Of a stretch of DNA of 22,299 bases, positions 2,444-21,251 are shown piece by piece. How positions within the stretch are numbered: position 1 is the stretch's first letter; each line of letters starts with the position of its first letter. The stretch spans positions 1-22,299 of the IMG/VR virus record IMGVR_UViG_3300050020_000063; one strand, 5' to 3'. This DNA comes from a virus. The translations under genes were made by a program, and so were the position numbers. Under the pieces are notes generated by a model. It saw only the letters and a list, made by a program, of their open reading frames with translations. It was not told the origin of the DNA and searched no databases.

Positions 2444-2671
2444 ATGGCCGTCCTCACCACAAAAGCCCGTAAGCACTTGAAGCCGAGCACATTCGGGCTT
2501 CCGGACGAGAAGTCATACCCGATGCCGGACAAGGCGCACGCGGCCAATGCCAAGGCCCGCGCGACGCAAATGGTTGCCAAGGGCAAGCTGTCCCCGGCCG
2601 ACGCCGCGAAAATCCGCCACAAGGCAAACCACGTCCTCGGCGAGACCGACTCCACCTACCACAACTGTTAA
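2444..2671 (+). CDS. Small phage-type protein of unknown function, DUF6582-like (75 aa)
   Basis: The protein starts MAVLTTKARKHL, then has STFGLPDEKSYPMPDKAHA and an alanine/lysine-rich helical C-terminal half with SPADAAKIRHKANHVLG. This layout, a short basic helix, an F-x-LP...YP-PDKAHA segment and one or two helices, matches from memory a common family of 60-80 residue phage proteins (DUF6582-type); their role is unknown. AGGGAG at 2432-2437 precedes the ATG by six bases, and this ribosome site lies inside an inverted repeat that could modulate initiation. The gene lies just upstream of the tagged-gene array, separated from it by a hairpin. Confidence 0.75.
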   Translation: MAVLTTKARKHLKPSTFGLPDEKSYPMPDKAHAANAKARATQMVAKGKLSPADAAKIRHKANHVLGETDSTYHNC

Positions 2672-2748: not shown

Positions 2749-3132
2749 ATGAAAGATGCAAAGGGCCACGGCAGCGATCCCCGAAACGGCGGCGTTCCCG
2801 TCGTGCGGCTCGACAGCGCCAACAGCCCGGCGCGCAAGACCGGCTATCTCGGCGCGCCGCAGCCAAAATATAACGTAAATCAGGATGCGGCTCGCGCGGG
2901 AGAGGGCGGCAAGCTCTCGACTGCGGCGGCCGAAAGGCTCGCCATGCGGCGGTCGGCCGACGAGTCGCGTTACCCCGTCACAGATCGGGTGGCAGCGATG
3001 GCGCTCGGTCAGGGTCATCCGAAATCGAATTCAGTGCCGCTCGGGTACGGCGCGGCGGCGGCCAAGTCCGACTTGTGGTTCGGCCGCAATGTCGCGATGC
3101 CTCGCGGCGCGGATAACCGGAGAAAGTCATGA
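2749..3132 (+). CDS. Tagged protein 1 of the array (127 aa)
   Basis: First of eleven proteins that open with the shared tag; here it reads MKDAKGHGSDPRNGG. The body is polar and basic without a recognised catalytic motif. Residues about 83-93 contain MALGQGHPKSN, related to ALAQGGAKSAP in the gene at 4187 and ALSQGHPKSAP in the gene at 10862, so it carries a module shared outside the tag. It has no signal peptide or membrane span. GGAG is centred about ten bases before the ATG. The stop overlaps the ATG of the next tagged gene (ATGA), indicating one operon. Function unknown; see the findings on the tag. Confidence 0.85.
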   Translation: MKDAKGHGSDPRNGGVPVVRLDSANSPARKTGYLGAPQPKYNVNQDAARAGEGGKLSTAAAERLAMRRSADESRYPVTDRVAAMALGQGHPKSNSVPLGYGAAAAKSDLWFGRNVAMPRGADNRRKS

Positions 3133-3443
3133 AGGACGCCAAAGGACACGGGAGCGACGCGCACAACAGCGGTATCAACGCGATTGATCCGGCTGTTATA
3201 GCGCGCTGGTCAAGCCCGAAAGGGAAGTGGACGGCGGAACTGCGCAAAGAAAGCGGCGTGTGGGGTGAAGGCTATCACCTATCCTCAATGAAGAATGGAA
3301 ACCCGGTCGGCGGCTCAAACATGCCAACGACCGATGACCCGCAAGGCCGGTGGAAGGGACTTCACAGCGACGCGGAAGCAATCGCCCACTATGACAATCA
3401 CGTCCGCAACACGTTCGATGTCGGCATGAAGAAGGTGCTGTAA
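3129..3443 (+). CDS. Tagged protein 2 (104 aa)
   Basis: Opens MKDAKGHGSDAHNSGINAID. The first ten residues match the tag consensus, the PRGG part is altered to AHNS, and the second motif (GVNxIG elsewhere) follows at once as GINAID. The body has several tryptophans and alternating polar/hydrophobic stretches (KWTAELRKESGVWGEGYHL) that suggest a small beta-rich domain, then a helical end. No family is recognised. It is joined to its neighbours by ATGA upstream and TAATG downstream. Because tag and second motif are adjacent here, it may show the shortest form of the shared N-terminal region. Confidence 0.83.
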   Translation: MKDAKGHGSDAHNSGINAIDPAVIARWSSPKGKWTAELRKESGVWGEGYHLSSMKNGNPVGGSNMPTTDDPQGRWKGLHSDAEAIAHYDNHVRNTFDVGMKKVL

Positions 3444-3673
3444 TGAAGGACGCCAAGGGCCACGGCAGCGAAGGACGCGGCGGGGACCGAGCCGTTCCCT
3501 TCGACCGATCCAAGATCGGCATGACAGTCGGCGCACAGTTTAGCGGCAAGATACTCGGGCCGCAAAGCGACAACGCTCGCACCATCGCGGGCTTGAGAAC
3601 ACGAATGCAGAGCACCGGCCCGGGCCATCAATCCGGACTGTTGCAGGGCATCAAGAATTTGTTGGGAGGCTGA
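3443..3673 (+). CDS. Tagged protein 3, shortest member (76 aa)
   Basis: Opens MKDAKGHGSEGRGGDRAV, with Glu replacing the Asp at tag position 10. The remaining 60 residues are basic, with several Gln and Gly and a short hydrophobic C-terminal helix (LLQGIKNLLGG). At only 76 residues, the tag is nearly one fifth of the protein, so the tag is likely a main functional part. It lacks the second GVNxIG motif. TAATG joins it to the upstream gene, and GGGAGG precedes the next gene two bases later. No family is recognised. Confidence 0.82.
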   Translation: MKDAKGHGSEGRGGDRAVPFDRSKIGMTVGAQFSGKILGPQSDNARTIAGLRTRMQSTGPGHQSGLLQGIKNLLGG

Positions 3674-3674
3674 C

Positions 3675-4181
3675 ATGAAAGATGCAAAAGGCCGCGGCAG
3701 TGATCCGCGCGGCGGCGCGCAGACCCCGGTACAGGCCGAAAACGCTCCATTCAAATCTCGACTTCCCGGGCCGCATTTCCTTGACCCCAACGATCCGCGC
3801 GGTTCGCATTCGGCAGGCGTGCAGCAAGTCGGCACACAGCCGAAGGTCCTCCCGAAAGAGAGCACCGACTCGCGCGAGTTGCGACTGTTCGCCGACAATC
3901 ATGCGGACCTGAGTCGGCAGTCGTTGCAGCCGATCCGCGACAACCTCGGCAAGAAGATGGACAAGGGCGTCTATGATCCCGAGAAGGCGGCGACGCTTTG
4001 GAAGTACCACGCCGACCGCGCCGCGCAGGCGTATACAAAAGAGTTCGGCAGCGCCAGCAACAATGTGCACGGATCGCACGGAAATTTTAGCCCGGCGGTT
4101 CGGCGCGAAGCCGCGCAGCATTGGGAGGCCGACGAGCGCGATGACATCAAGAGCGGGTCGAGCCGCACTCACAAGGGATAA
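3675..4181 (+). CDS. Tagged protein 4 with a split tag region and a helical domain (168 aa)
   Basis: Opens MKDAKGRGSDPRGG, with Arg replacing the tag His. The second motif appears late, within DPRGSHSAGVQQVG at about residues 40-53. DPRG therefore occurs twice (residues 10-13 and 40-43), as if about 30 residues were inserted or the segment was duplicated. The C-terminal part (about residues 70-160) is helical: FADNHADLSRQSLQPIRDNL, then KGVYD, then YTKEFGS. From memory, this order resembles small phage proteins of unknown function (an N-L-R-x-PI-NL, G-YD-A, Y-KEFG pattern); this was not checked. It reads as a known phage accessory domain placed behind the tag. Confidence 0.83.
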   Translation: MKDAKGRGSDPRGGAQTPVQAENAPFKSRLPGPHFLDPNDPRGSHSAGVQQVGTQPKVLPKESTDSRELRLFADNHADLSRQSLQPIRDNLGKKMDKGVYDPEKAATLWKYHADRAAQAYTKEFGSASNNVHGSHGNFSPAVRREAAQHWEADERDDIKSGSSRTHKG

Positions 4182-4186
4182 CGGTC

Positions 4187-4807
4187 ATGGCAATGGCAAA
4201 GGACGCAAAGGGTCACGGCTCCGAGAAGCGCGGCGGCGCAAGTGCGGTCGCGGCTCCGGCCTATGAAGGCAAGCCGACGTGGCACGGCGTTATGCCGAAC
4301 GGTCAGAAGGTCACGAACCAAGCGGGCAACAAGCTTTCCTATGCAAGCCCGGAGGCAGCGGTCGCCGGAGCGGCATGGCAACATGGGGTGGAAGGTCGTT
4401 CGCTCGCGGCGCGCGACCCGCTTCAAAACCCGCAACTCAACGACAAGCAAGCCGCCTCCGCGCTCGCGCAGGGCGGGGCGAAGTCGGCCCCGGTGCCGGT
4501 GCACGGCGGCGCGACAGGTCGGAGCGACGGCCCCCTCGCCGGAATGACACAATCGAAATGGAGCGGCATGTCACAGGCCGAACGCGAACGGGTACGCGAC
4601 AACAGCGCGCTCACTCCGCAGTTGAAGGGTCTCGAAGGCCACCGAGTCGAAGCGACTACAGGTTCCGGCGAGACACGACGGTTCATTGTCGGCAAATCGA
4701 CCGGATGGGCACCGATCCATCTTGAAATCAAAAAGAGCAACTCATTTGGCGGCGGCCCCGCCAGCAAGTCCTACGCTTCGGTTCGTTCGCTCGGGAAGGT
4801 TCGGTAG
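4187..4807 (+). CDS. Tagged protein 5, longest member, with a basic C-terminal domain (206 aa)
   Basis: The tag sits behind extra residues: MAMAKDAKGHGSEKRGG. The ribosome site AAGGG (about 4174) fits ATG 4187 better than the in-frame ATG at 4193. The middle contains ASALAQGGAKSAPVPVHGG (residues 90-108), a module shared with the genes at 2749 and 10862. The last 60 residues (EGHRVEATTGSGETRRFIVG, STGWAPIHLEI, YASVRSL) look like a small beta domain. From memory, R-RF-VG-STGW-P-HLE recurs in unrelated phage proteins without a known role. At least three modules are therefore joined in one polypeptide. There is no catalytic motif. Confidence 0.83.
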   Translation: MAMAKDAKGHGSEKRGGASAVAAPAYEGKPTWHGVMPNGQKVTNQAGNKLSYASPEAAVAGAAWQHGVEGRSLAARDPLQNPQLNDKQAASALAQGGAKSAPVPVHGGATGRSDGPLAGMTQSKWSGMSQAERERVRDNSALTPQLKGLEGHRVEATTGSGETRRFIVGKSTGWAPIHLEIKKSNSFGGGPASKSYASVRSLGKVR

Positions 4808-4810
4808 GCC

Positions 4811-5293
4811 ATGAAGGACGCAAAAGGACACGGCAGTGACCCGCGCGGCGGATCGCACGCGGATGGCGTCAACAAGATCGGGATCACTCACCCGGCCTAC
4901 AACACGAGGCAGAAGGTGCGCGGCTGGACCGTGCCAGTAAATCCGCTCAACGCCGACTACAGCACGTCGGGTTCGCTGTTGCGTCAGCGCATGGCGAATA
5001 TGAGCAAGGAAGATCACAAGTCGGCCGGTGACGCGCATATTGCGCAATCACAGTCGATGCGCGCCGAGCACGGGAAGCTCGTCGAGAGCGCAATGAACAA
5101 GCTCGGGATGGAGTCGCCCGGCCCGCTGATTTCGGGCATCGTCTCCGACAAGTTCTCGGAGGGCGACAAGAGCCGTCTACGCGATCTGGCGGTTGGTGCC
5201 TCGAACCATACGAGCGCCGCGTTCGCCCACTATTCGGCGTCGGGTATGCGACTGCCCACGGCTCGGACGCGGTATCAGGGACTCAAGGGGTAA
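4811..5293 (+). CDS. Tagged protein 6 (160 aa)
   Basis: Opens with the full bipartite signature: MKDAKGHGSDPRGG, then SHADGVNKIG ending at residue 24. After a polar linker the body is largely helical, with a long charged stretch (MSKEDHKSAGDAHIAQ and SMRAEHGKLVESAMNKLGM) and a C-terminal region rich in Ser, Ala and His. No catalytic or binding motif is recognised. It sits three bases after the previous stop, and the following gene starts three bases after its own stop. This is the cleanest example of tag plus second motif, useful as a reference when comparing members. Confidence 0.83.
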   Translation: MKDAKGHGSDPRGGSHADGVNKIGITHPAYNTRQKVRGWTVPVNPLNADYSTSGSLLRQRMANMSKEDHKSAGDAHIAQSQSMRAEHGKLVESAMNKLGMESPGPLISGIVSDKFSEGDKSRLRDLAVGASNHTSAAFAHYSASGMRLPTARTRYQGLKG

Positions 5294-5296
5294 GCC

Positions 5297-5839
5297 ATGG
5301 CAAAAGATGCAAAAGGTCACGGAAGTGAAAGTCGCGGCGGCGGCGAGGGCAGGGTTCGCGGTATGCCGATAGCTGGTCACCTGTATCACACCAAGACCAA
5401 CGACGAGCTTCACTACATCGCGAAGGACGCGAGCGAAGCGGCGCGAGCACAGCGCGGGATGGCGTCGGAAGGCAAGTATCTCGATCAGGTCAACGACGCG
5501 TCAACAGTTCTCGGCTGGCGCTCACGCGGCGGCAAGGACCTGTCGCAAAGCCCGGCAGTCGATGTCGCGGCTCAGCACGGGATTGGTACGTCGCACCTTG
5601 CCCCGCCGACTCCAATTTGGAACCGGCCCGAAGGAAGCAGCAAGAATATGGTGAGCAACGCCGCGCTTAGCGGTGGCGCTACCAGCACTCATAACTCGCA
5701 GGGTCACGCGTGGGGATCGCCGGAGGCCCTCAAGGATTTCAAGGTCGAACATGGCGGCCCGCGCGATCACGCGGCCGAACAGCGTGGGTTCAACAGCATG
5801 AGCCGAGACATCGCTCGGCTCCGCCGACAGGGCAAGTAA
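5297..5839 (+). CDS. Tagged protein 7 (180 aa)
   Basis: Opens MAKDAKGHGSESRGGG; compared with the consensus, one Ala follows the Met and Glu occupies the acidic position. Residues about 30-75 form a distinct block (LYHTKTNDELHYIAKDASEA, then KYLDQVNDASTVLGWR) that looks like a folded alpha/beta unit. From memory, similar strings occur in phage hypothetical proteins, but I cannot name the family. Residues 90-104 contain AAQHGIGTSHLAPP, closely matching AAKHGIDTSHLSLP in the next gene; HGI-TSHL resembles the recognition-helix region of some HNH-associated DNA-binding modules. It is otherwise polar and likely soluble. Function unknown. Confidence 0.83.
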   Translation: MAKDAKGHGSESRGGGEGRVRGMPIAGHLYHTKTNDELHYIAKDASEAARAQRGMASEGKYLDQVNDASTVLGWRSRGGKDLSQSPAVDVAAQHGIGTSHLAPPTPIWNRPEGSSKNMVSNAALSGGATSTHNSQGHAWGSPEALKDFKVEHGGPRDHAAEQRGFNSMSRDIARLRRQGK

Positions 5840-5840
5840 C

Positions 5841-6374
5841 ATGGCTTGGGATGAAGCGGCACGACAGGCATCAATCGAAGCTCGGCAAGCGGGCGCGAAG
5901 GGCAAGCAAGATCAGCCCGAGCGCCCGGTCGGGTTTGCGCACTTCAAGAAGTCCGGCCATAGCGGGGGTGGTTACGGCGGCGGTCGGCACGGTGGTCGCG
6001 GCGGTGGCGGCGGCGGTGGAGGCGGCGGTGGCGGTGGCGGCGGTGGCGGCGGTCGTTTCGGTGGCGGAGGCGGTGCCCATCAAATCGCTGCGAAACACGG
6101 CATCGACACTTCGCATCTGTCACTCCCGGAGCAACAGGTGCTAAGACAACAGATACAAATGCAACAGATACAAAGACAACAAGTGCAAAAAGCCAATACG
6201 GCCGACGCTGCGCCCGCGAGGGGCAGTGCAGCGGCACAACAGAGCGCACAACAGAGCGAACAACAGAAACCCGCACAGAAGCCCAAAGCGCAGCGTGGCA
6301 AGAGCGGCGGCGGCGGACGAGGCACACCTGTTCTTCGGAGCTTCGGTCCCGGCGGCGGATACGGGGGACGGTAA
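5841..6374 (+). CDS. Untagged Gly/Gln-rich low-complexity protein (177 aa)
   Basis: Lies inside the tagged array but starts MAWDEAARQASIEARQ without the tag. Residues 41-78 are nearly all glycine, including an uninterrupted run of 18 Gly (residues 54-71). They are followed by IAAKHGIDTSHLSLP (82-96), shared with the upstream gene, then a Gln-rich repeat (QQIQMQQIQRQQVQK) and more Gln/Ala/Lys. The C-terminus returns to glycine (GPGGGYGGR). Such composition is typical of flexible linkers or disordered assembly segments. No enzyme motif is seen. It is one base from the previous stop and coupled by TAATG to the next tagged gene, so it belongs to the same operon. Confidence 0.75.
   Translation: MAWDEAARQASIEARQAGAKGKQDQPERPVGFAHFKKSGHSGGGYGGGRHGGRGGGGGGGGGGGGGGGGGGRFGGGGGAHQIAAKHGIDTSHLSLPEQQVLRQQIQMQQIQRQQVQKANTADAAPARGSAAAQQSAQQSEQQKPAQKPKAQRGKSGGGGRGTPVLRSFGPGGGYGGR
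5963..6077 (+). repeat. GGN glycine-codon repeat
   Basis: A run of GGC/GGT/GGA/GGG triplets encodes the poly-glycine part of the protein at 5841. The third bases vary, so it is a codon repeat rather than a perfect microsatellite, but tracts like this can still change length by slippage in units of one glycine without breaking the frame. Confidence 0.8.
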
Positions 6375-6769
6375 TGAAAGACGCAAAAGGTCACGGCTCT
6401 GATCCAAGAAACGCGGGCGGCACGCCGCTCACCAAGCAATTCGGCCCCGGCGAAATGGCCGCGCATCAAACCATGGTGCGCAAGGTGCTGGCGTCAGGCG
6501 ACGTTCATGGAGCTTTGGCGCACGCGGTTACCGGCTACGACCGGAAAGAGCAAGCTCGCGCCGAAGTGAAGGGGTCCTATTACAATCCGAACGTGCTCGG
6601 GATTTATCTCGGGGGCGCTCAACGTGCGGCGGAGAGCATCAAGAAGGGCGCGAGTCACGCCGATGCCATTAACAATGAATTCAACGGGGGTCTTGCCCGG
6701 TCGCTCCATAAGGCGCTAGGAACGGGAGGCACCGACGTTGACACGATGCGCAAGCGGAGCTTCAAATGA
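6374..6769 (+). CDS. Tagged protein 8 (131 aa)
   Basis: Opens MKDAKGHGSDPRNAGG and shares PRN with protein 1 rather than PRGG. There is no clear second motif. The body is strongly helical, with MVRKVLASGDVHGALAHAV, then GAQRAAESIKKGASHADAI and a short amphipathic C-terminal part. A tyrosine/asparagine-rich turn (GSYYNPNVLGIYLGG) separates the helices. I do not recognise a family. The start overlaps the stop of the Gly-rich gene (TAATG), and the next tagged gene starts in an ATGA junction at 6766. Confidence 0.83.
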   Translation: MKDAKGHGSDPRNAGGTPLTKQFGPGEMAAHQTMVRKVLASGDVHGALAHAVTGYDRKEQARAEVKGSYYNPNVLGIYLGGAQRAAESIKKGASHADAINNEFNGGLARSLHKALGTGGTDVDTMRKRSFK

Positions 6770-7224
6770 AGGACGCGAAAGGACACGGCAGCGATCCGCG
6801 TGGCGGGGAGACGGCGCATCAATCGGGCGTCAACCAAATTGGCTTGCGACAGAAAGGTGCGCAGATCATCACTGGTTATGGGCCGCCGTTTGATGTGCAG
6901 ATCAATCCGAGCGAGCGCGACCTGCGAGGGATGGCTAAGGATGCGATGGACAATACCGTGCGAGTCGTAATTGACCGAGCCACGGATAACCTCTATGCTT
7001 GGGACGCAGGAAAGGCGATCCATGCGTCGATAGAGAACGTGATGAACCTTGATGCGAAGCATCAAGACAATTGGGTTCTGCGCGGCGGAAAACTTCTGTC
7101 GCAACGCTATCTCCCGGATCGAGTTGATCCGACCTACGGGCCGCGAACCGCCGGGACTACCTCGGCGAAAGATATTAAAGAGGCGGCGGCCGAAGTCGCC
7201 TCGCACATGAAGGGGCGGATATGA
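6766..7224 (+). CDS. Tagged protein 9 (152 aa)
   Basis: Opens MKDAKGHGSDPRGG, then AHQSGVNQIG ending at residue 26: the full bipartite signature. The middle (residues about 63-95) reads NTVRVVIDRATDNLYAWDAG followed by KAIHASIENVM, an alpha/beta unit resembling R-x-x-D-x-x-x-N-LY-WDA-x-x-x-H segments that I recall from large phage polyvalent proteins; the family is not named and not checked. The C-terminus is charged and helical. It has no signal or membrane segment. It is coupled by ATGA on both sides. Confidence 0.83.
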   Translation: MKDAKGHGSDPRGGETAHQSGVNQIGLRQKGAQIITGYGPPFDVQINPSERDLRGMAKDAMDNTVRVVIDRATDNLYAWDAGKAIHASIENVMNLDAKHQDNWVLRGGKLLSQRYLPDRVDPTYGPRTAGTTSAKDIKEAAAEVASHMKGRI

Positions 7225-7694
7225 AAGACGCAAAAGGACATGGTAGCGATCCGCGCGGTGGCGCATCGCATCAAGGGGGCGTGCAAAACGTCGGCAGGCC
7301 CGCGCCCAAAATAAGCGACGCGGCGCTTAAGGTCATTCGCAATACTCCTCCGGGCGGCGGTGGCTCTGTGACGTTGGGCGGCCAGCAACCGACCGCAGGC
7401 TACATGGTCAGCTTGCCGAGTCGCACCAAAGAGCTTGAAGTCGGTGAATTGCAGGGGCCGAATGCGCGGGCCATTCTCAACGCATATGCACAGACGCACG
7501 CCGATGCTTTCAGCAATCCGGCGATGCACTTCGGCCTGTGGCACGATCCCGACACGAAAAAGATGTCCCTCGACCCATCCGAAAATATCATGAGCCGCAA
7601 GGCGGCGATAGCCGCTGGCGTGGCGCGTAACCAAAAAGAGATTTGGGACGTGAAGCGCGGCGTGGGCATCAAAACCGGCGGCACGGGGACGTAA
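7221..7694 (+). CDS. Tagged protein 10 (157 aa)
   Basis: Opens MKDAKGHGSDPRGG, then SHQGGVQNVG ending at residue 25. A glycine-rich loop (PPGGGGSVTLGG) precedes an alpha/beta region. The C-terminal half contains FGLWHDPDTKKMSLDPSE, then ARNQKEIWDVKRGVGIKTGG. From memory, the order G-W-D-x-x-T-K-x-x-LD followed by NQ-x-x-I-WD recurs in phage proteins near structural genes, function unknown. The tag therefore precedes what may be a recurrent phage domain, as in proteins 4, 5 and 9. ATGA coupling is upstream, and a two-base gap leads to the next gene. Confidence 0.83.
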   Translation: MKDAKGHGSDPRGGASHQGGVQNVGRPAPKISDAALKVIRNTPPGGGGSVTLGGQQPTAGYMVSLPSRTKELEVGELQGPNARAILNAYAQTHADAFSNPAMHFGLWHDPDTKKMSLDPSENIMSRKAAIAAGVARNQKEIWDVKRGVGIKTGGTGT

Positions 7695-7696
7695 CA

Positions 7697-8230
7697 ATGG
7701 CAAAGATGTTGACCACGGCCGATGTGGCGAAGCTAGAGCGCAAGAAGCCGGTGCCGGGAGTGCGGACTCCGGGTCCCGATGCGTTGCAGCCCAAGCCCAA
7801 GAAGTCGGAATTCCGAACCACGGGGCATGATGTGTTGCAGCCCAAGCGCGATAAGCCGGAGGACGCCCCCGGCACGCTGCACCCGCATCACATTCCAATT
7901 GTTGACCACAAGGGACGACATCGCGGTCATGTCGGCCCGAAGGCCACGGCTGCGACCGTTGCGCGCTTCACAGGCCAACACGGCGCGAAGCTCGGCAAGC
8001 ACGATGGGAAGGTCGCGTGGATCAGCCCGCCACCCCCGCCGCCGAAGCCGAAGGAAGCGGACCCGACCGCCGTCGCCGTCGCGGCTCAACACGCGAAGGG
8101 AAAGCTTGCCGTCGCGGCCCATCAAGCGGAGGCGAAGCACAAGCTCACAATCGAGCTTAATCAGGCGAAGGGCAGCGCGACGAAAACCCCAAGCAAGCCC
8201 GAGACGAGTGCTCGTCCGAAGCGGGGGTAA
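7697..8230 (+). CDS. Untagged Pro/Lys/His-rich protein with an internal repeat (177 aa)
   Basis: Starts MAKMLTTADVAKLERKK at 7697, two bases after the previous stop; an upstream in-frame start at 7643 would overlap the tagged gene and is rejected. A 15-residue direct repeat is visible, VRTPGPDALQPKPKK (22-36) and FRTTGHDVLQPKRDK (39-53). The middle has HPHHIPIVDHKGRHRGHVG and a small unit FTGQHGAKLGKHDGKVAWI, then six prolines (111-116) and an Ala/Lys/Gln helix. It is strongly basic, suggesting a disordered or nucleic-acid-contacting protein. It lacks the tag although tagged genes flank it. No family is recognised. Confidence 0.75.
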   Translation: MAKMLTTADVAKLERKKPVPGVRTPGPDALQPKPKKSEFRTTGHDVLQPKRDKPEDAPGTLHPHHIPIVDHKGRHRGHVGPKATAATVARFTGQHGAKLGKHDGKVAWISPPPPPPKPKEADPTAVAVAAQHAKGKLAVAAHQAEAKHKLTIELNQAKGSATKTPSKPETSARPKRG

Positions 8231-8233
8231 GTC

Positions 8234-8647
8234 ATGAAGGACGCGAAGGGCCACGGCTCCGACCCGCGCGGTGCGCACGCCGAAGGTATCAATCAGATCG
8301 GCCAGCCACTCCCTAAAGGCGTGTATGATATTCGCAATGACGTGCGCGACGCGCACGGGGACGAGCTTTATGGCACCGTCCGCGCGGCGACCGCAGCTTT
8401 CGTTACGGACACAAAGCAATACGTCGGCAAGATCGACTACGGCGCGATTACCGGCTACAAGCCGCAAGTCAGCATCCACATGATTGAAGTCAATCCCGAG
8501 CATCGCGGCCAAGGTGTCGCGACTAAGATGATGGACAAGCTCCGCGAGGAATTCACTGAGAACGGAAAAGCTCCGAAAATAAATTGGGGGATGCTGACGC
8601 CGGAGGGTGTCAAATTCAAAAAAGCGTACACGGCGAGGAAGTCATGA
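8234..8647 (+). CDS. Tagged protein 11: GNAT-family acetyltransferase-like (137 aa)
   Basis: Opens MKDAKGHGSDPRGA, then HAEGINQIG ending at residue 23. The body matches the GNAT N-acetyltransferase fold: beta strand VSIHMIEVNPEHRGQGVATK with motif A RGQGVA at residues 91-96, which in this family binds the acetyl-CoA pyrophosphate, then a helix (MMDKLREEF) and a late LTPEGVKFKKAY. At about 110 residues behind the tag it is near the minimum for a GNAT domain. The substrate is unknown. This is the only member with a clear enzyme fold, and it shows that the tag can precede a catalytic-type domain. The stop overlaps the next ATG (ATGA). Confidence 0.82.
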   Translation: MKDAKGHGSDPRGAHAEGINQIGQPLPKGVYDIRNDVRDAHGDELYGTVRAATAAFVTDTKQYVGKIDYGAITGYKPQVSIHMIEVNPEHRGQGVATKMMDKLREEFTENGKAPKINWGMLTPEGVKFKKAYTARKS

Positions 8648-8745
8648 AGTTTGCCAAGATCGGCGTGACTCTCTACCTCGCGCAAGCGGCGGTCGGTGTT
8701 GCCGGGGGCATTGCATGGGCACTGTGGCACACCTTCGGCGGGTAA
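8644..8745 (+). CDS. Very small single-pass membrane protein (33 aa)
   Basis: The ATG at 8644 overlaps the stop of the GNAT gene (ATGA), and 33 codons run to TAA at 8743-8745. The product starts MKFAKIGVTLYLAQAAVG and continues as an uncharged Ala/Gly/Val/Trp segment ending LWHTFGG, a single membrane span with a positive N-terminus. It is the last gene of the tagged operon. Small phage membrane peptides can act in lysis, superinfection exclusion or membrane anchoring; none can be chosen from the sequence. Coupling and composition argue that it is real. Confidence 0.6.
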   Translation: MKFAKIGVTLYLAQAAVGVAGGIAWALWHTFGG

Positions 8746-10861: not shown

Positions 10862-11140
10862 ATGGCAAAGGCGAAGGTCGCACCACTCGCAATGATCGCC
10901 GCGTTTGATCCGGCTCCCCGAGCCGTCGTACCGACGCGTCGCGACCTGAATGAACTGACACCCGATGAAGTGGTGAGCGCGCTCTCGCAAGGCCATCCGA
11001 AATCGGCTCCCGTCAAAATTCACAAGGGGATGGAGGGTGAGCGTACCGGACTCCCGCACCTGACGCCGCACAGTTTGCGCTATCGTCAAGCGCATGAAAA
11101 GATGGGGACCAAGATCGCGCCGGAACAGGTGATGACATGA
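10862..11140 (+). CDS. Hypothetical protein with the QGHPKSAPV module (92 aa)
   Basis: The ribosome site AAGGAAG ends about six bases before the ATG. The protein begins MAKAKVAPLAMIAAFDPAPR. Residues 34-56 (PDEVVSALSQGHPKSAPV and on to KIHKG) form a module also found inside the tagged proteins at 2749 and 4187, although this protein has no tag. The rest (LTPHSLRYRQAHEKMGTK) is basic and helical. A small DNA- or protein-binding helix pair is possible; nothing is proven. It is coupled by ATGA to the ParB-like gene. Confidence 0.72.
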   Translation: MAKAKVAPLAMIAAFDPAPRAVVPTRRDLNELTPDEVVSALSQGHPKSAPVKIHKGMEGERTGLPHLTPHSLRYRQAHEKMGTKIAPEQVMT

Positions 11141-12076: not shown

Positions 12077-12751
12077 ATGGGACAGGATGATACGCCCACT
12101 ACGGGCCGGGAGCTTATGCGCGAGTCGCGTAGCCGCACAATTGTCGGCAAAAAGAACAGCCCCGAGCGCCTGACAAAATTGCTCAACTACGTTGTCCAAT
12201 TTCCGTCGATCAGCCGCGCCTGCAACATGGCCGGACTGAGCGTCACGACGTTGAAGTATTACCTCGTCAAGAGCGAGAAGGGCGCGCCGGGCGACGGCTT
12301 CGACCTGACTTATGGCGAGGAGACCAAGAGATTTCATCTACACTTCGCCGACTGCCGCGACGCCGCTATTCAGATGGTTGAGGATGCGTATGTCAGTCGA
12401 GCCGTCAACGGCTACTACGAAACCCTCTCCGACAAAGGCCGCGTGATCTATCAAATTGATCCCGCACTGTCGGGCTTGGGCCTCACAGGTCCCGACGCAT
12501 ATCTTCTTGACGACGACGGCAAGCCAATCCCCGAACGTATCGAACATCAAGACCCCGAAGTCATGGAGAAGGTGCTGCGCGCCTACCGGCGCGACCGTTG
12601 GGGCACACACGACAAGCTCGATGTCAACTTCCGTGGCGGCGTGATGGTCGTCGGGATGCGGGCAAAGGACTCGAAAGAAATTGAGGAGCTAGAGACGCAG
12701 ACGCTCGCGGCTCCGCTGGATGTTGAATTCCGTGAAGTGGAGGACGAGTGA
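12077..12751 (+). CDS. terS: Probable terminase small subunit (224 aa)
   Basis: It lies immediately upstream of the large terminase, where the small subunit of the packaging motor is normally encoded; the small subunit recognises the phage genome and recruits the large one. The N-terminal third has a helix-turn-helix pattern, VVQFPSISRACNMAGLSVTT followed by LKYYL (about residues 39-63). The middle is helical (HLHFADCRDAAIQMVEDAYV). After a proline-rich turn, the late part (KVLRAYRRDRWGTHDKLDVN) resembles the C-terminal region of terminase small subunits and related HTH packaging proteins. TTGGAG precedes the ATG. The stop overlaps the next gene (TGATG). The call rests on HTH plus position. 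Confidence 0.8.
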   Translation: MGQDDTPTTGRELMRESRSRTIVGKKNSPERLTKLLNYVVQFPSISRACNMAGLSVTTLKYYLVKSEKGAPGDGFDLTYGEETKRFHLHFADCRDAAIQMVEDAYVSRAVNGYYETLSDKGRVIYQIDPALSGLGLTGPDAYLLDDDGKPIPERIEHQDPEVMEKVLRAYRRDRWGTHDKLDVNFRGGVMVVGMRAKDSKEIEELETQTLAAPLDVEFREVEDE

Positions 12752-14397
12752 TGGCTCTCCTCCTCCCGGGTGATAATGATGGTTTGCCGAAAGTCCCCCG
12801 CCGGTCAATCATCAAGGCTTTCGTGAAGGAAAATAACGAATACTTCCCGATTGTCCTTGATGATTACGGCAACGAAAAGCAAACGATTTGGGCACCGCTG
12901 CCCGGATCGCAAGAATTGTTCTTGGTCGCGCCGGAATTCGAGGTTCTCTACGAAGGGACGCGCGGCCCGGGCAAGACGCTCACACTCTTGATGGACTTCT
13001 GTTCCGAAGTCGGCAAAGGCTACGGCGCTGAATGGAAGGGCATGATTATCCGGCGCACGTATCCGGAATTGGCCGACGTGATCGCCATGAGCAAGAAGTG
13101 GATCAAGCGTCTGTGGCCCGACGCCTTCTACAACGAGATTAAATACTTTTGGCAGTTCCCCACGGGCGAGCTTCTTTACTTCCGGCCAATTGCGACGGTC
13201 GATGATTACGACGCACACCACGGCACGAACTATACATGGCTCGGGTGGGAAGAATTGACGCTGTGGGCTGACGACAAGCCGTTCAAGCGGATGCAGTCAG
13301 TCGTCCGTTCGTCGATCAAGAACATCCCGAAACGCATTCGCTCGACCACGAACCCCTACGGCAAGGGGCACAATTGGGTTCAAGCTCGATACGGTCTCTA
13401 CAACTGGCCGATCAAGGTGGGTCGCGACGACCGTGGCGATATTTGGAAGATTGCCGGGCCGCTCATTACCGGAGCGGTTGACGAGGACGGCATTCCCGCG
13501 CCACCGCGTCGGGCATACCACGGGGCGCTGCGCGAGAACATCATTCTCATGCGCGTGCAGCCGCAGTATGTCCACCAACTGAAAGCGTCGGCGCGCAACA
13601 AGGCAGAGCTTGACGCATGGCTCTACGGATCGTGGGACATTGCCGCTGGCGGCATGTTCGATGATATTTGGGCGACGCATCGCGACACGGTTGTCGTCAA
13701 GGATTTTGAAGTGCCGATGAACTGGCGCATCTATCGCGCCTATGACCACGGTTCGTCGAAACCGTGGTCCTGCGGCTGGTACGCAGCGAGCAATGGCGAG
13801 GACCTGACGTTCACTGACGGGACCGTGCTCTCGACTCGGCCGGGCGATTACTTCCGTTGCGGCGAGCTATACGGATGGCAAAAAGATCAACCCGATGTTG
13901 GGCGTCGGCAGCAAATTCCGGACATCAAGGCCGAAATAATCCAATACGAGATTGATCGCGGATGGCGCGACACAAACGCTGGCACATGCCGGGTGCGGCG
14001 CGGCCCGGCGGACACAAGCATCTTCGCGGAGGAGGATGGGCGGCCGTCCGTCGCCAGCGACTTCGAGTCCCCGTGCGTCATCAACGGCCACCGCTGGCGC
14101 GGCATCATTTGGGAGCGGGCCGACAAGCGCCCCGGCTCCCGCGAACAAGGGTGGGAACAGGCTCGGAAACGACTCAAGGCCACCAAGCGCCCGCCGGGCG
14201 GCGTCCGCGAGGAAAAGGGCCTATTTATCGTTGCAGATCGGTGCCCGCAATGGATGCGGACGGTGCCGGTTTTGTCCCGAGACGAGAAGAAATTGGACGA
14301 TGTTGACACCGACACAGAGGACCACATCGGCGATGAAATGCGGTATATGCTGCGGTACGATCCGGGCACGATGCGCTCGGGTCGAGTAGGAGCTTGA
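12751..14397 (+). CDS. terL: Terminase large subunit (548 aa)
   Basis: This is the ATP-driven DNA packaging motor and nuclease that acts at the prohead portal. Walker A is GTRGPGKT at residues 69-76, with Arg/Pro variation of the usual GGRGSGKT. Walker B with the catalytic acid is YTWLGWEEL (161-169). The motif-III-like STTNP is at 198-202. In the C-terminal RNase H-like nuclease, the expected acids are D332 (RAYDHGSS), D421 (PADTSIF) and D524 or D527 (EDHIGDEMRYML). Its length is typical. GGAGG at 12739-12743 favours ATG 12751, which overlaps the upstream stop; a GTG at 12748 is in frame but less likely. A 50-base gap follows. Confidence 0.95.
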   Translation: MALLLPGDNDGLPKVPRRSIIKAFVKENNEYFPIVLDDYGNEKQTIWAPLPGSQELFLVAPEFEVLYEGTRGPGKTLTLLMDFCSEVGKGYGAEWKGMIIRRTYPELADVIAMSKKWIKRLWPDAFYNEIKYFWQFPTGELLYFRPIATVDDYDAHHGTNYTWLGWEELTLWADDKPFKRMQSVVRSSIKNIPKRIRSTTNPYGKGHNWVQARYGLYNWPIKVGRDDRGDIWKIAGPLITGAVDEDGIPAPPRRAYHGALRENIILMRVQPQYVHQLKASARNKAELDAWLYGSWDIAAGGMFDDIWATHRDTVVVKDFEVPMNWRIYRAYDHGSSKPWSCGWYAASNGEDLTFTDGTVLSTRPGDYFRCGELYGWQKDQPDVGRRQQIPDIKAEIIQYEIDRGWRDTNAGTCRVRRGPADTSIFAEEDGRPSVASDFESPCVINGHRWRGIIWERADKRPGSREQGWEQARKRLKATKRPPGGVREEKGLFIVADRCPQWMRTVPVLSRDEKKLDDVDTDTEDHIGDEMRYMLRYDPGTMRSGRVGA

Positions 14398-14447: not shown

Positions 14448-16121
14448 ATGGCTATTGATGACAAACACCCCGAGTACGTTCAAAAAGTCGGGGAATGGAT
14501 ACAGATGGCGGACACGTATAAGGGCGAGCGCGCCGTAAAGCGCAAGCGCCTTGATTACCTTCCGCCGTCCGAAGCCATGATCCAAGACGGCATGACAACC
14601 CCGTCATCGCCCGGCTGGCGTGACTACGAAGCCTACCTGACCCGAGCCTACTACCACGACGTTGTTCGCGACGCCGTGAAGGCCATGCTCGGCATCATGC
14701 ACATGAAGCCCGCAATCATCAAGCTTCCGGCTCGGCTCGCACCGATGGTGGACAAGGCGACCATCCAAGGCGAAGGCTTGCAGATGCTCTTGCGCCGGAT
14801 CAATGAGGCGCAACTTGTCAAGGGCCGCTGCGGATTGTTGGTCGATGCACCGAATGGCGTCGATCCGTTCAACGCTCTCCCCTACATCGCATTCTACGAT
14901 CCCGAGCGCCTAATCAATTGGGATGCTGGTCGGCGTGATGAAGGGCGCAACGTCCTCGATCTTGTCGTGCTCGACGAGTCGGGCTTTCAACGTGAAGGTT
15001 TTACGTGGGTGACGGAGCGCAAGCACCGCATCCTGACACGCGGCACGCCGCAGAGCCTTGAGAGCGGGTGGGTGCGCCCGCCGCTCGATGCACCCTATCA
15101 GGTGTGCGTGAAGGTCAACGATATGTCAATGCCGATCCCGGACGATTTTATTATGCCGTCCATCGGCGGTCGGCCGATGACGGAAATCCCGTTCGTGTTC
15201 GTCGGCGCAAACGATCTTGTGCCCGAGCCGGACGAACCGCCGCTTCTCGGCTTGAGCAACCTCGCGCTGACGATCTATCGCGGCGAGGCCGACTACCGCT
15301 CGACTCTCCACTATCAGGGCCAGCAAACTCTCGTCATCATCGGCGGCAACGTCTCGGACGTTGACGAGAACCAACAGCTTCGCATCGGCAACAAGGGCGT
15401 CATCGACCTGCGCATCGGCGGCGACGCGAAATACATCGGCGTCAGTGCGTCCGGTCTCGGCGAAATGCGCCAATCCCTCAAGAACGACGATGAAGTCGCT
15501 TCGGGCTTCGGCGTGCAGTTCATGGATGTCGGCAGCGCACGCGGAGCCTCGGGAGAGGCCCTCCGCATTCGCGTTGCCGCGCGCACGACAACCATTCAGC
15601 AAATCGCTGTCGCCGCTGGCGCGGCGCTTGAGCAATGCCTCAAGTTCGCGGCGGTGTGGGTCGGAGAGGACCCCAATGAAGTTTCAGTTGCTCCGCAGAC
15701 CGACTTCGCCGACGCCAACGTGCAGGGCGCTTCCCTCCTCGCGTTCATGCAGGCAAAGCAGTTGGGTCTCCCTCTGTCGCTCAAGTCCCTGCACCGCATG
15801 ATGGTGCTCAACGACATGACCGACATGGACTTCTACTCGGAGAACGATCAGATCGAGCAAGAGGCCGAGAGCCTTGTCGGCATGATGATACACGGGCCGC
15901 TCCCGACCGATGCCGTGGATGCCTCATTCTCCGATACCGCTCCCGACACCGGCACCGATCCAATCGACCCGGGCGATACCATTCCGCCCGCCGAACCTGC
16001 CGAACCCGCCGACACTGGCGCACCCGCCGGTACGCCGGTTCCGGTGACTCCGCATCGACGCGGCTCGCCTAACCCCCTCAAGGTGAAGGTCGGTAAAAAA
16101 GGAGCTAGTGCAGGAAAATGA
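14448..16121 (+). CDS. Portal protein, DUF4055-type (557 aa)
   Basis: The portal forms the dodecameric ring at one capsid vertex through which DNA enters and leaves. Position directly after the terminase, length and motifs fit the DUF4055 portal family: YLPPSE (37-42), the Y-x-x-YLTRAYYHDV segment (about 60-72), and the loop LVKGRCGLLVDAPNG (123-137). Mid-protein ISFYDPER-like and GEADYRSTLHYQG segments follow, then QFMDVGSARGASGEALRIRV. The last 60 residues are rich in Pro, Asp and Thr and end basic (KVKVGKKGASAGK), probably a flexible tail. It lacks an N-terminal signal. The stop overlaps the ATG of the GIY-YIG gene. Confidence 0.88.
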   Translation: MAIDDKHPEYVQKVGEWIQMADTYKGERAVKRKRLDYLPPSEAMIQDGMTTPSSPGWRDYEAYLTRAYYHDVVRDAVKAMLGIMHMKPAIIKLPARLAPMVDKATIQGEGLQMLLRRINEAQLVKGRCGLLVDAPNGVDPFNALPYIAFYDPERLINWDAGRRDEGRNVLDLVVLDESGFQREGFTWVTERKHRILTRGTPQSLESGWVRPPLDAPYQVCVKVNDMSMPIPDDFIMPSIGGRPMTEIPFVFVGANDLVPEPDEPPLLGLSNLALTIYRGEADYRSTLHYQGQQTLVIIGGNVSDVDENQQLRIGNKGVIDLRIGGDAKYIGVSASGLGEMRQSLKNDDEVASGFGVQFMDVGSARGASGEALRIRVAARTTTIQQIAVAAGAALEQCLKFAAVWVGEDPNEVSVAPQTDFADANVQGASLLAFMQAKQLGLPLSLKSLHRMMVLNDMTDMDFYSENDQIEQEAESLVGMMIHGPLPTDAVDASFSDTAPDTGTDPIDPGDTIPPAEPAEPADTGAPAGTPVPVTPHRRGSPNPLKVKVGKKGASAGK

Positions 16122-16672
16122 TATTTTTCTTGTACCGGATAACTCTTCCCGATGGCCGTATGTATTTCGGGGTCGCCAAAAATCCTCAACGCAGGTTCGT
16201 TGAACACTGTCGCAGCCCGTATGTAATCGGGCAGGAGATACGAAAATCGAAACGTGAGGCGATACGATTTGAAATTCTAGTCTGCGGCGAGGATTGGTAC
16301 ATCTTCGAGTTAGAGGCTCAGTCGGTCGCTGCCTTCAATACACGCTGGCCGAACGGATTAAATATAGCAGTCGGCGGTTTTGGCGGGCGCGATCACCTTC
16401 CTATGATACGCGAAAAAATCTCGCGAGTCTGCACAGGCAAAAAGAAAACAACCGAAGCGAGGCGTCACATATCTGCGGCCCTAACAGGTCGTACTCCGAC
16501 GCCGGAAACCCGGGCTAAATTGGCGAAAGCAAACCTCGGGAAGAAGATGCCCGACGCCATCAAAGCCAAAATTTCGGCGGCGCTTGTTGGCCGACCAAAA
16601 CCCAATGGTTTTGGAGATAAGATAGCTGCCATTCACGCAGCGCGCCGCGTCAACCGGGGTGTGAAGCCATGA
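16118..16672 (+). CDS. GIY-YIG homing endonuclease-like protein with NUMOD3-type repeats (184 aa)
   Basis: The N-terminal domain follows the GIY-YIG nuclease pattern: FLYRITLPDGRMYFGVAKN (4-22), where YFG replaces YIG, then QRRFVEHC with the conserved Arg, a Glu in FELEAQSV (E65 region) and WPNGLNIAVGG with the late Asn. Residues about 99-160 hold four repeats of the DNA-binding NUMOD3 type (KISRVCTGKK, HISAALTGRT, KLAKANLGKK, KISAALVGRP). Such free-standing enzymes cut alleles lacking them and spread between phages. It sits between portal and protease, joined by ATGA on both sides, and is visibly more AT-rich than its neighbours, a sign of acquisition. Confidence 0.88.
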   Translation: MIFFLYRITLPDGRMYFGVAKNPQRRFVEHCRSPYVIGQEIRKSKREAIRFEILVCGEDWYIFELEAQSVAAFNTRWPNGLNIAVGGFGGRDHLPMIREKISRVCTGKKKTTEARRHISAALTGRTPTPETRAKLAKANLGKKMPDAIKAKISAALVGRPKPNGFGDKIAAIHAARRVNRGVKP

Positions 16673-17691
16673 CTATCGAGGACGATGCTAAATTTGAGGC
16701 TGAGCACCGCAAGCGGCACCACAAACACCACTTCGGATGGCGTCCCGACTTGCCGGACATTCGAGATTATCAATACAGCACCCGACGCTACCATTTGGAG
16801 AAGCCGCGCACGCTACCGAGAAAAGTAGACCTTCGACCGGGGGACCCTCCCGTGTACGATCAGGGAGATTTGGGGTCTTGCACCGCCAATGGCGTAGCGG
16901 CGGTGTTTGAATTCGACCGCATCAAGCAAAAGGAAGTGGATTTTACCCCCTCTCGGTTGTTCATTTATTTCAACGAACGAAAGATAGAAGGAACCGTTCC
17001 GTTTGACGCTGGCGCGGCCATACGAAACGGCATAAAGTCGGTGGCTACAGACGGCGTTTGCAAAGAAACTGACTGGCCGTATGTCGAGTCCAAGTTTGCA
17101 GACACCCCGCCAGTATCGACCTACGACTTGGCGCGCAAATACCGAGCGTTGAATTATTTTCGCTTGGATAACACCAAACTCTACGAACTAAAAAGCTGCC
17201 TCGCGGCAGGATTTCCATTTGTCTTTGGGTTCACCGTCTACCAGTCATTCATGGACGCGAGCGATAACGGCGGGATCATTCCCATGCCGAGCGCAGATGA
17301 ACAGGCCCTCGACGGACATGCGGTTGTCTGTGTCGGTTATGACGATGACGCGGAGCGGTTCACCATTCGCAATTCTTGGGGTACTGACTCCGGAGATAAG
17401 GGCTATCTCTACATGCCCTATAAGTACCTTACCGATGACAATCTGGCGGATGATTTTTGGACGATCAGAACCGTTACTCATGACGAGGGTCTCGTCGTAC
17501 CGCCGCCTTTTGAATTGCGTCGGGCGTCCCGGCGCGAACAGACACCACACAACGCCGCAGTTGCGGGGTTCGCCGTCGCCATCAATGAGGCCGAGAAGCA
17601 CCGCCAAACCCTGAAACGCCGGTTCGGCTACACGGATCAGCAAATCGGGAATATGGCGCTGACCTATAAAGCTCGAAAAAGAACCCCTTGA
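16669..17691 (+). CDS. Papain-like (C1 family) cysteine protease (340 aa)
   Basis: The catalytic layout of papain-family enzymes is intact. The oxyanion Gln is Q65 in VYDQGDLGSCTANG, the nucleophile is C71, the histidine is H217 in LDGHAVVCVGYDD, and the asparagine is N235 in RNSWGTDSGDKGY. The N-terminal 60 residues, His/Lys-rich then WRPDLPDIRDYQYS, resemble the short prosegment of bacterial members rather than a signal peptide, so the protein is probably cytoplasmic or virion-bound. The C-terminal 60 residues are a charged helical extension. It occupies the spot between portal and scaffold where a prohead maturation protease is usual. A maturation role is inference. Confidence 0.9.
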   Translation: MTIEDDAKFEAEHRKRHHKHHFGWRPDLPDIRDYQYSTRRYHLEKPRTLPRKVDLRPGDPPVYDQGDLGSCTANGVAAVFEFDRIKQKEVDFTPSRLFIYFNERKIEGTVPFDAGAAIRNGIKSVATDGVCKETDWPYVESKFADTPPVSTYDLARKYRALNYFRLDNTKLYELKSCLAAGFPFVFGFTVYQSFMDASDNGGIIPMPSADEQALDGHAVVCVGYDDDAERFTIRNSWGTDSGDKGYLYMPYKYLTDDNLADDFWTIRTVTHDEGLVVPPPFELRRASRREQTPHNAAVAGFAVAINEAEKHRQTLKRRFGYTDQQIGNMALTYKARKRTP

Positions 17692-18679: not shown

Positions 18680-19540
18680 ATGCCAGTCAAGTTGAAAACC
18701 ATCTACGAAAAGCAGGAAGAAATCCCCGAAGGGTTCGGCGAGCTTTACGCCGAGAAGAACGGGAAGTTTGAGTTGAACGCCATCGAGGGCGTCAAGACTC
18801 AGGCCGACATCGACCGCGTGAACGAGGCGCTCAAGAAAGAGCGAGGCGATCACAAGATTGTTCGCGAGAAACTGCAAGCGTTCGGCGAAGTCGATCCCGC
18901 AACACTCCCCGTGTTGCAAGAAGAACTGGCCGAAGCCAAGGCTCGGCTCGACAACCTCACCGCCGAAGGCAAGCTCGACGAGACCAAGGTGCAGGCGCAG
19001 ATCGACGCGGCGGTTAACCGTGCGGTCGGCCCGGTCACTCGCGACAAGGACTCGCTCGCGCGGCAACTCGAAGCGTCGAAGAAGATCGTCGCCGACAAGG
19101 AAGCCGAAATCGCCAGCGTCAAGCAAGAGCAACAGCAAGAGCGCGTTCGCAATACGCTTCGCGACGCGATCATTGCTGCGAAGGTCGTTCCCACGGCCAT
19201 CGACGACGCGGTGCTGGTCGGCGAGCGCATGTTCGAGCTTGTCGATGGCAAGCTGGTCACCAAGAACGAGAACGGCCTGACTCCCGGCCTCAACCCGAAG
19301 GAATGGGCGAAGGACATGGAGGAGAAGCGTCCGCACTGGTTCCCCACGAGCGTCGGAGGCGGCGCGCAGGGTGGCAAGGGCGGCGGCACCAACGTCAAGG
19401 ACAACCCGTGGAGCGCCGCAGGCTGGAACTTGACTCGTCAGGGCCAAGTCGTCAAAGACATCGGCGAGGCGAAGGCGGCCGAAATGGCGGCTCGCGTCGG
19501 CTCGTCTCTCGGTGCCACGAAGCCCGCGAAGGCGGCCTAA
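18680..19540 (+). CDS. Probable capsid scaffolding protein (286 aa)
   Basis: Begins MPVKLKTIYEKQEEIPEGFG, and the phrase IPEGFGELYAEKNGKFEL is typical of scaffolds encoded before capsid genes. Residues about 42-165 are a long charged helical/coiled-coil region (DIDRVNEALKKERGDHKIV to EAEIASVKQEQQQERVRN). A small domain follows (ISFVVPTAIDD-like VVPTAIDDAVLVGERMFEL), then a glycine-rich linker (SVGGGAQGGKGGG) and an NPWSAAGWNLTRQGQ tail that probably contacts capsid subunits. GGAGGA at 18665-18670 precedes the ATG. Scaffolds guide capsid assembly and then leave or are cleaved; the nearby cysteine protease is a candidate for that. A terminator follows. Confidence 0.85.
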   Translation: MPVKLKTIYEKQEEIPEGFGELYAEKNGKFELNAIEGVKTQADIDRVNEALKKERGDHKIVREKLQAFGEVDPATLPVLQEELAEAKARLDNLTAEGKLDETKVQAQIDAAVNRAVGPVTRDKDSLARQLEASKKIVADKEAEIASVKQEQQQERVRNTLRDAIIAAKVVPTAIDDAVLVGERMFELVDGKLVTKNENGLTPGLNPKEWAKDMEEKRPHWFPTSVGGGAQGGKGGGTNVKDNPWSAAGWNLTRQGQVVKDIGEAKAAEMAARVGSSLGATKPAKAA

Positions 19541-20120: not shown

Positions 20121-21251
20121 ATGACCGTATCAACCACTATCGCAGACGTTATCGTTCCCGCGATCTTCACGCCGTACACCCAACAGTTGACGATGGAAAA
20201 GACCGCCATCATCCAGTCGGGCATCGCGGCGCGCGACGACTTCCTCGACAACCTCCTCGCTGGCGGCGGTTTGACCTTCACGGTCCCGTCTTGGCAGGAC
20301 ATCGGCGACCCCGCCGAAAACGTGTCGAGCGATGATCCGAATTCGGACTCGACGCCCAACACCACGCAGACTTCCGGCGAAGTCGCCGTTCGTCTGTCCC
20401 GCAACAGTTCGTGGAGCACGATGCGCCTCGCGACCGCCCTCGCCGGAGCCGACCCGATGCAGTCCATCGCATCGCGCGTGTCCGACTATTGGGTCCGTCG
20501 TCTACAGCGCGCGTTCGTCGCCGTTGCCAACGGCGTGTTCACCACCAACGACCAAACCAACGCGGGTGCCACCCCGGGCGGCAAGGGTCTCTCGGCTCAG
20601 TTCGGCACGCAGTCCGACCTGACCAACTCCATCGCGGGCACCGCCTTCTCGGCCGGTGTCACCGACTTCAACGCCGAAGCGTTCATCGACACCTGCACGT
20701 TGCTCGGCGACGCCGCCGAAGATGTGACTGCCGTGTTCATGCACAGCATCGTGTACTCGAAGGCGCAGAAGAACAACCTGATCGACTTCATCCCGGATGC
20801 CGAAGGCCACATCAATATCCCGGTGTTCCTCGGCCGTCGCGTGATCGTCGATGACGGTATGCCCAACCCGGCGGGCGACACCGCCAACAACGCCCACACC
20901 GCCTCCGGCGAATACCACACTTGGCTCGTCGGCCCGGCCAGCTTCCGACTCGGCGTCGGCACCCCCGTGGTCCCGACCGAAGTGTTCCGCTACCCGTCTC
21001 GCGGTAACGGCGCAGGCTCGGACGTTCTGTTCAACCGCGTCGAGTGGGTCATCCACCCGGTCGGTCACGCGTGGGTCGGTTCCTCGCCCCACTACGAAGG
21101 TGGCCCGACCAACGGCCAGCTTTCCGCCGCCGGATCGTTCGTCCGCGTGTTCCCGGAGCGCAAGCAGATCAAGCTCGCTCGCTTGATTACCCGGGAAAGC
21201 ACCGCCATCCCGCAGGCGTGGGATGCGACAGGCGGCCAGAACGTCGAGTAA
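20121..21251 (+). CDS. Major capsid protein, HK97-fold type likely (376 aa)
   Basis: GGAGAG six bases before ATG 20121 sets the start; the frame is open upstream to 20016 without a ribosome site. The protein begins MTVSTTIADVIVPAIFTPYT and is balanced in composition, Ala/Gly/Thr-rich, with no signal or membrane span. Features typical of capsid subunits are an N-terminal segment that inserts at the shell (VIVPAIFTPYTQQLTMEKTA), a long spine-like helical middle (SRVSDYWVRRLQRAFVAVAN), VFLGRRVIVDDGMP, and a late FNRVEWVIHPVGHAWVG. Its position after scaffold and high-quality codon use support a strongly expressed shell protein. No N-terminal delta domain of HK97 type is obvious. The family was not verified. 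Confidence 0.85.
   Translation: MTVSTTIADVIVPAIFTPYTQQLTMEKTAIIQSGIAARDDFLDNLLAGGGLTFTVPSWQDIGDPAENVSSDDPNSDSTPNTTQTSGEVAVRLSRNSSWSTMRLATALAGADPMQSIASRVSDYWVRRLQRAFVAVANGVFTTNDQTNAGATPGGKGLSAQFGTQSDLTNSIAGTAFSAGVTDFNAEAFIDTCTLLGDAAEDVTAVFMHSIVYSKAQKNNLIDFIPDAEGHINIPVFLGRRVIVDDGMPNPAGDTANNAHTASGEYHTWLVGPASFRLGVGTPVVPTEVFRYPSRGNGAGSDVLFNRVEWVIHPVGHAWVGSSPHYEGGPTNGQLSAAGSFVRVFPERKQIKLARLITRESTAIPQAWDATGGQNVE

Follow-up and report, generated by a model that had tools for sequence, protein, structure and literature searches.

The IMG/VR virus record IMGVR_UViG_3300050020_000063 includes a 22.3-kb fragment (positions 1 to 22,299; the window, by which we mean the whole stretch of DNA analysed) in which an array of small genes upstream of the terminase genes shares a short N-terminal peptide. 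Eleven plus-strand open reading frames (ORFs), from 2749 to 8647, open with the tag M(A/AM)KDAKG[HR]GS[DE]. Gaps and overlaps between adjacent ORFs of the array are all within 5 bases, an operon-like arrangement. An initial annotation had described eleven consecutive proteins with one tag in front of unrelated bodies. The eleven genes, their product lengths (76-206 aa), the D or E at tag position 10 in every window protein and the R in place of H at 3675 were all confirmed, but the series is not strictly consecutive, as two ORFs without the tag interrupt it. Chance is excluded: a degenerate DNA pattern for KDA-x-GHG-[ST] has ten matches in the window (the eleventh tag, at 3675, misses the pattern because of its R), and none of 100 dinucleotide shuffles contains any match. 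The gene at 4187 opens MAMAKDAKGHGSE and that at 5297 opens MAKDAKGHGSE, which shifts the tag by 1-3 residues.

All features described here are on the plus strand. The left boundary gene of the array (2444..2671; phrog_16160, PHROG 2e-28) is of unknown function, and a homologue also precedes the array of a related contig, L200/L236. The first tagged protein (2749..3132, 127 aa) has a GHPKSxxVP motif in its body and is followed by proteins of 104 aa (3129..3443) and 76 aa (3443..3673). Next are the R-bearing protein (3675..4181, 168 aa), from an LRLFADN family with four tagged members; the longest protein (4187..4807, 206 aa), with a C-terminal phrog_10759 domain (1.2e-20); a 160-aa protein (4811..5293) whose tag runs on as SHADGVNKIG; and a 180-aa protein (5297..5839) of a YHTKTNDELxYIAKDA family, putatively helical in a low-confidence model. 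A Gly-rich ORF without KDAxGHGS (5841..6374), whose start, MAWDEAARQASIEAR, resembles the T3 tag defined below, separates these from three further tagged proteins: 131 aa (6374..6769), 152 aa (6766..7224; the tag runs on as AHQSGVNQIG) and 157 aa (7221..7694; family A). A Pro/Lys/Ala-rich ORF without a tag (7697..8230) precedes the eleventh tagged protein (8234..8647, 137 aa). Its body is a GNAT acetyltransferase fold (Pfam Acetyltransf_1, 7.3e-8), as initially recognized. At 8644..8745 is a short hydrophobic ORF without a tag, which a tagged protein of contig G021 (17236-17469) resembles in its C-terminal half.

Small ORFs fill the 3.4 kb between the end of the array and the small terminase gene (TerS; 12077..12751, phrog_4044). 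The large terminase (TerL; 12748..14397, phrog_979), portal (14448..16121, DUF4055/phrog_145), a GIY-YIG homing endonuclease (16118-16672), a papain-like C1 peptidase (16669..17691), an endonuclease VII/HNH-like gene (18155-18619), head scaffolding protein (18680..19540; phrog_206, 9e-39) and major capsid protein (20121..21251; phrog_247, 4e-95) follow in that order. In relatives, proteins with the T2 tag (see below) occupy the interval between portal and scaffold that here holds the two nuclease genes. Searches of the window for tRNAs and Rfam RNAs found none, and terminator and promoter scans gave no excess over shuffles.

Two DNA-pattern scans of IMG/VR returned 62 and 28 tag-bearing stretches. 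From these stretches and whole contigs of related IMG/VR phages we obtained 207 non-redundant tagged proteins with at least 59 body clusters. This count is a lower bound because short motifs chain bodies together; single linkage joins 103 proteins in this way into a cluster that is not one family. The claim that the bodies are unrelated holds in the main, with distinct folds among them, but several window bodies have tagged relatives elsewhere (those at 7221, 5297, 3675, 3443, 4811 and 6374), and four proteins (4811, 6766, 7221 and 8234) have a further segment in common after the tag, [AS]HxxG[VI]xxxG. Within 45 aa this segment occurs in 76 of the 207 tagged proteins versus 11 of 973 untagged ORFs of at least 150 aa, indicating that in a subset the tag is longer, about 27 aa. 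Two other short motifs recur. One, approximately A-x-x-[AL]-x-x-G-x-[PA]-K-S-x-P-V-x-x-H, is present in the window at 2749, 4187 and 10862-11140, in 22 of the 207 tagged proteins and in some untagged array neighbours; the other, HGIxTxHL, is found in the window at 5297 and 5841 and in seven tagged proteins, and so in tagged and untagged array members alike.

The tag-bearing phages are an uncultured group, mostly of soil type. A scan of 84,980 prokaryote genomes gave eight stretches, and real tags were present only in two Hyphomicrobiales contigs from metagenome-assembled genomes. Most of the eight were rejected as an unrelated motif, RKDAKGHGT, in proteins with the look of phosphoribosyltransferases. 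Neither KDAKGHGS nor GRFASG was found in any paper in a literature search.

What is conserved in the tag is the peptide, not the DNA. Tag copies with the same peptide are 94, 94 and 49% identical at codon positions 1, 2 and 3, and 121 copies comprise 114 distinct 24-mers, which makes a recombination seam, or a signal for translation alone, less likely. Relatives differ at position 10 (N in 47, D in 37, E in 30 and A in 5). The variable positions 4 and 9 are nearly uniform within each genome, to a degree reached by none of 5000 shuffles; this is expected if tags fit a partner of their own phage, or if they were copied within a genome.

Family A (window 7221; 23 aligned members) gave the only good structure model. 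AlphaFold2 assigns residues 1-24 a pLDDT below 50 and the body (residues 30-157) about 95, and the disordered residues nonetheless contain invariant columns. In family A, as modelled, the tag is no part of the body's fold. A Foldseek search of family A against PDB gave nothing with E below 0.18, so no biochemical function was assigned to the body. Its structure matches in BFVD include an 811-aa protein named XkdF.

The tag is also exchangeable. We distinguish T1 (KDAxGHGS), T2 (RDxxGRW[ST]xG, with HDxxGRFAxG) and T3 (MW[ST]DEARxAA). In seven relatives T2, as MxFDPxExRDxxGRWTxG, opens proteins of 290-1044 aa downstream of the portal, directly after it in most; by eye, two of the bodies are ART-like (ART, ADP-ribosyltransferase) and two have HEXXH. 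T3 opens four genes in L200/L236, a contig that has TerS, TerL, portal (69% identity) and flanking genes in common with the window. At the same place upstream of TerS, its array contains homologues of the window proteins 3443 and 7221 with T3 replacing T1. Family A itself is headed by T1 in most phages, by T3 in L200/L236 and by T2 in L221-L224, where ORFs of 564 and 1045 aa contain the T2 motif immediately ahead of family A. Homologous bodies can therefore stand behind different tags. A skeleton, [KR]-D-x-x-G-[HR]-x-[ST], is common to T1 and T2, a resemblance noted post hoc. The 1045-aa ORF (L224, 1316-4453) begins with a part in which two HxT motifs like those of 2H phosphoesterases can be seen by eye, and continues with GNAT-like and family A modules that are T2-tagged. 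Contig G001 (IMGVR_UViG_3300027908_000001), a 197-kb phage contig, encodes at 9-44 kb multi-domain ORFs in which KAKDAxGHGS and HDxxGRFA tags are repeated internally, together with several ART-PolyVal domains and, in one 1600-aa ORF, a weak MuF match. Here HDxxGRFAxG variants open ART-like proteins and also sit between domains.

Among the window's tagged bodies, the GNAT fold is the only recognized domain of the polyvalent-protein type. Tagged relatives add ART-PolyVal (8.7e-14, L028; also found in G008 and G001), the Arr-type ADP-ribosyltransferase Arr-ms (7e-7, L046), ParB_N (3e-4, L015) and GNAT (4e-4, L038). Further bodies are ART-like or zincin-like (HEXXH) by eye only, and most belong to no family. 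Pfam gave no match for ten further tagged bodies, and neither the window 5297 body nor a T2-tagged metallopeptidase-like protein had a match in INPHARED. Between the array and TerS, an untagged ORF of the window (11137-11475) looks by eye like a ParB/Srx-type domain (NNGHHRMAAQ); L015 has a tagged ParB_N body.

Gene position was compared in twelve related contigs with a recognizable TerL, and in all twelve the array lies upstream of TerS on the same strand. Among the 72 tags of the nine contigs that measure 76-127 kb, 65 are at most 12 kb upstream of TerL (12.6% would be expected if they were uniformly distributed), and all 72 are on the TerL strand. The initial annotation had placed the array beside head genes; its position upstream of TerS and TerL is indeed conserved, but in the window it stops 3.4 kb short of the small terminase. 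The annotation had also proposed asking whether tag matches across phages cluster near head genes and precede varied domains; the matches from IMG/VR do precede varied domains and, in the nine large contigs, cluster by TerL.

Untagged relatives of the bodies also point to the virion. Proteins of cyanophages S-CBP42 and P60 (1639 aa in P60) that are annotated as internal virion proteins contain the family A body. In P60 an ART-like stretch, seen by eye, lies ahead of it, and in G008 a tagged ART-PolyVal gene adjoins a tagged family A gene. Mycobacteriophage I3 gp111, another body relative, is encoded between the major head protein and head decoration genes, and its PHROG (3170) holds both family A and the body of one T2-tagged protein. 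Microbacterium phage Caron encodes, beside its portal gene, a VG15 minor capsid protein with the acetyltransferase-like body of L020 at the C-terminus. In G015 the KDAxGHGS tag itself occurs within an ORF that has an XkdF-type head protease domain. A literature search found no virion proteomics for Bxz1-like phages or Syn5-type proteins.

We propose that the KDAxGHGS tag is probably a virion-loading label for injected effectors, similar to the T4 capsid targeting sequence (CTS) and operating without a recognized prohead protease. The tag, KDAxGHGS[DNE] and about 10-27 residues long, would act as a linear motif, disordered and N-terminal, for attachment to one of the phage's own head-assembly proteins, perhaps scaffold, portal or coat. 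Binding would bring each small, unrelated effector into the assembling head, and cleavage would not necessarily be involved. The effectors would then be injected with the DNA and act on the new host by acetylation, ADP-ribosylation or action on DNA or defence targets. T1, T2 and T3 would form an exchangeable set that heads like bodies, whether these have genes of their own or are modules of head-associated polyproteins with the tag at the module boundary. The common address tag suggested initially is strengthened by its modularity, the effector-like bodies, the conserved place by head and packaging genes and the swapping of tags between homologous bodies; the virion is its best-supported candidate destination.

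Several points weigh against a virion destination. The position of the array is not independent evidence, because ancestry is partly shared within one phage group, and seven of the 72 tags fall outside the array, on the same strand (G003, 68-69 kb; G004, 35 kb; G005, 89 kb; G008, 60-61 kb). The labels "internal virion" and "minor capsid" are depositors' annotations. An untagged relative is the first gene of Pseudomonas phage UNO-SLW3, in an early-looking region, and another, in Fusobacterium phage phiKSUM, lies in an early-looking region of small genes, which implies that the bodies can serve as proteins expressed early, too. The phiKSUM gene (L180, 2022-2381) is family A as a solo gene of 119 aa, and small genes nearby include DUF1874, possibly an anti-defence neighbourhood.

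These relatives, and the few tagged genes far from the array, would suit a tag that is an address inside the infected cell (host complex, membrane or replication site), with the array as a host-takeover or anti-defence island that merely adjoins the terminase genes. Small size and variety, seen in the tagged proteins, are features of anti-defence islands as well. We consider this account unlikely, if the most serious of the competitors: every one of the 72 tags is on the head-gene strand, the array always sits just before TerS, body relatives occur both in proteins annotated as virion components and in polyproteins of the head genes, and the XkdF-type protease ORF contains the tag. Tags at module starts of head-adjacent polyproteins would be left unexplained.

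Those internal tags could instead mark protease sites between polyprotein modules, the tag being a processing signal that was kept at gene starts. The repeats inside the G001 ORFs, of the form [VLF]xKAKDAxGHGS, and the T2 tags ahead of modules in L221 and L224 would fit such a signal. It is nevertheless improbable, as in most phages each tag is at residue 1-2 of the product of its own gene, so that cutting there would free nothing, and the residues ahead of the tag vary. Searches of the window and the twelve TerL-bearing relatives, whose contigs may be incomplete, found no S78, S78_2 or S49 head protease (S77, the type of T4 gp21, and Clp-type proteases were not searched). The papain-like peptidase of the window was not found in any of the twelve relatives and is no conserved part of the system. 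Tag cleavage is therefore not supported, and neither is removal of the tag by the adjacent cysteine protease to which the initial annotation had pointed.

A recombination seam for swapping effector cassettes, with no function as a peptide, would explain why bodies are swapped behind constant starts and why ORFs abut or overlap by 1-4 bases like cassettes, but the lack of DNA conservation described above already disfavours it, and we judge it very improbable. An origin of all the tagged proteins by duplication of a single fold, whose N-terminus was kept while the C-termini drifted apart, is hardly credible despite the common start and the relatives or short motifs that some bodies share, as it is contradicted by distinct folds (GNAT, ART, ParB), by homologous bodies with other tags or none and by a tag outside the predicted fold.

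If the KDAxGHGS tag is a virion-loading label, a ten-residue signature would reveal, straight from sequence, which phage proteins travel in the virion and act at the onset of infection. Such proteins, mostly of unknown families, would be candidates for anti-defence functions, and the short peptide could be used to try loading foreign proteins into phage heads. The T4 capsid-targeting principle would extend to phages without a recognized head protease. More tentatively, tailed phages without a T4-type head protease may possess a general virion-addressing code, in which the exchangeable tags KDAxGHGS, RDxxGRW[ST]xG/HDxxGRFAxG and MW[ST]DEARxAA, largely uniform in each phage, load effector arrays and mark cargo modules in polyvalent or head-protein fusions. 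Differently tagged homologous bodies in phages related by terminase and portal constitute a natural experiment for finding the receptor.

Several known systems resemble the tagged array in part. In MuF-fused polymorphic toxins and effectors (PMC5576092, PMC5512222) the effector is likewise attached to a head-associated element, but the carrier is the MuF domain, whereas here it is a short peptide; MuF (PF04233) was absent from the window and the twelve TerL-bearing relatives, present in G015 and below the cut-off in G001. The Dar, Hdf and Ddr proteins of phage P1 (PMC12810830, PMC9024508) are also a set of internal head proteins and serve anti-restriction. Their loading follows an order of dependence, and DarA and Hdf are capsid-bound (PMC12810830); the accessible text of the two papers describes no short common tag. 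Polyvalent proteins (Iyer et al. 2017, PMC5512222) are closer in content. They have the same kinds of domains (ART-PolyVal, ParB and, by eye, zincin HEXXH, here in tagged relatives), are encoded next to virion genes, as here, and are predicted to be packaged and injected (PMC5512222). They are large multidomain chains, in contrast to the separate small genes of the window, each with its own tag and one recognizable body; chains of at least two domains were found only in the G001-type and L221/L224-type ORFs of relatives. The accessible text of PMC5512222 makes no mention of a short common tag.

The closest parallel is phage T4, in which diverse small defence-type proteins, conserved only in the CTS, are packaged and injected (PMC3012670). 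In T4 the internal proteins undergo proteolytic maturation, whereas the S78, S78_2 and S49 head proteases were not found here, and the tag here coexists with exchangeable tags and sits at polyprotein module starts. We do not file the tagged array, known from sequence, as a member of the T4 family, but we infer that it works like the CTS-bearing internal proteins, with which it shares the design of one brief N-terminal peptide ahead of bodies that have nothing else in common.

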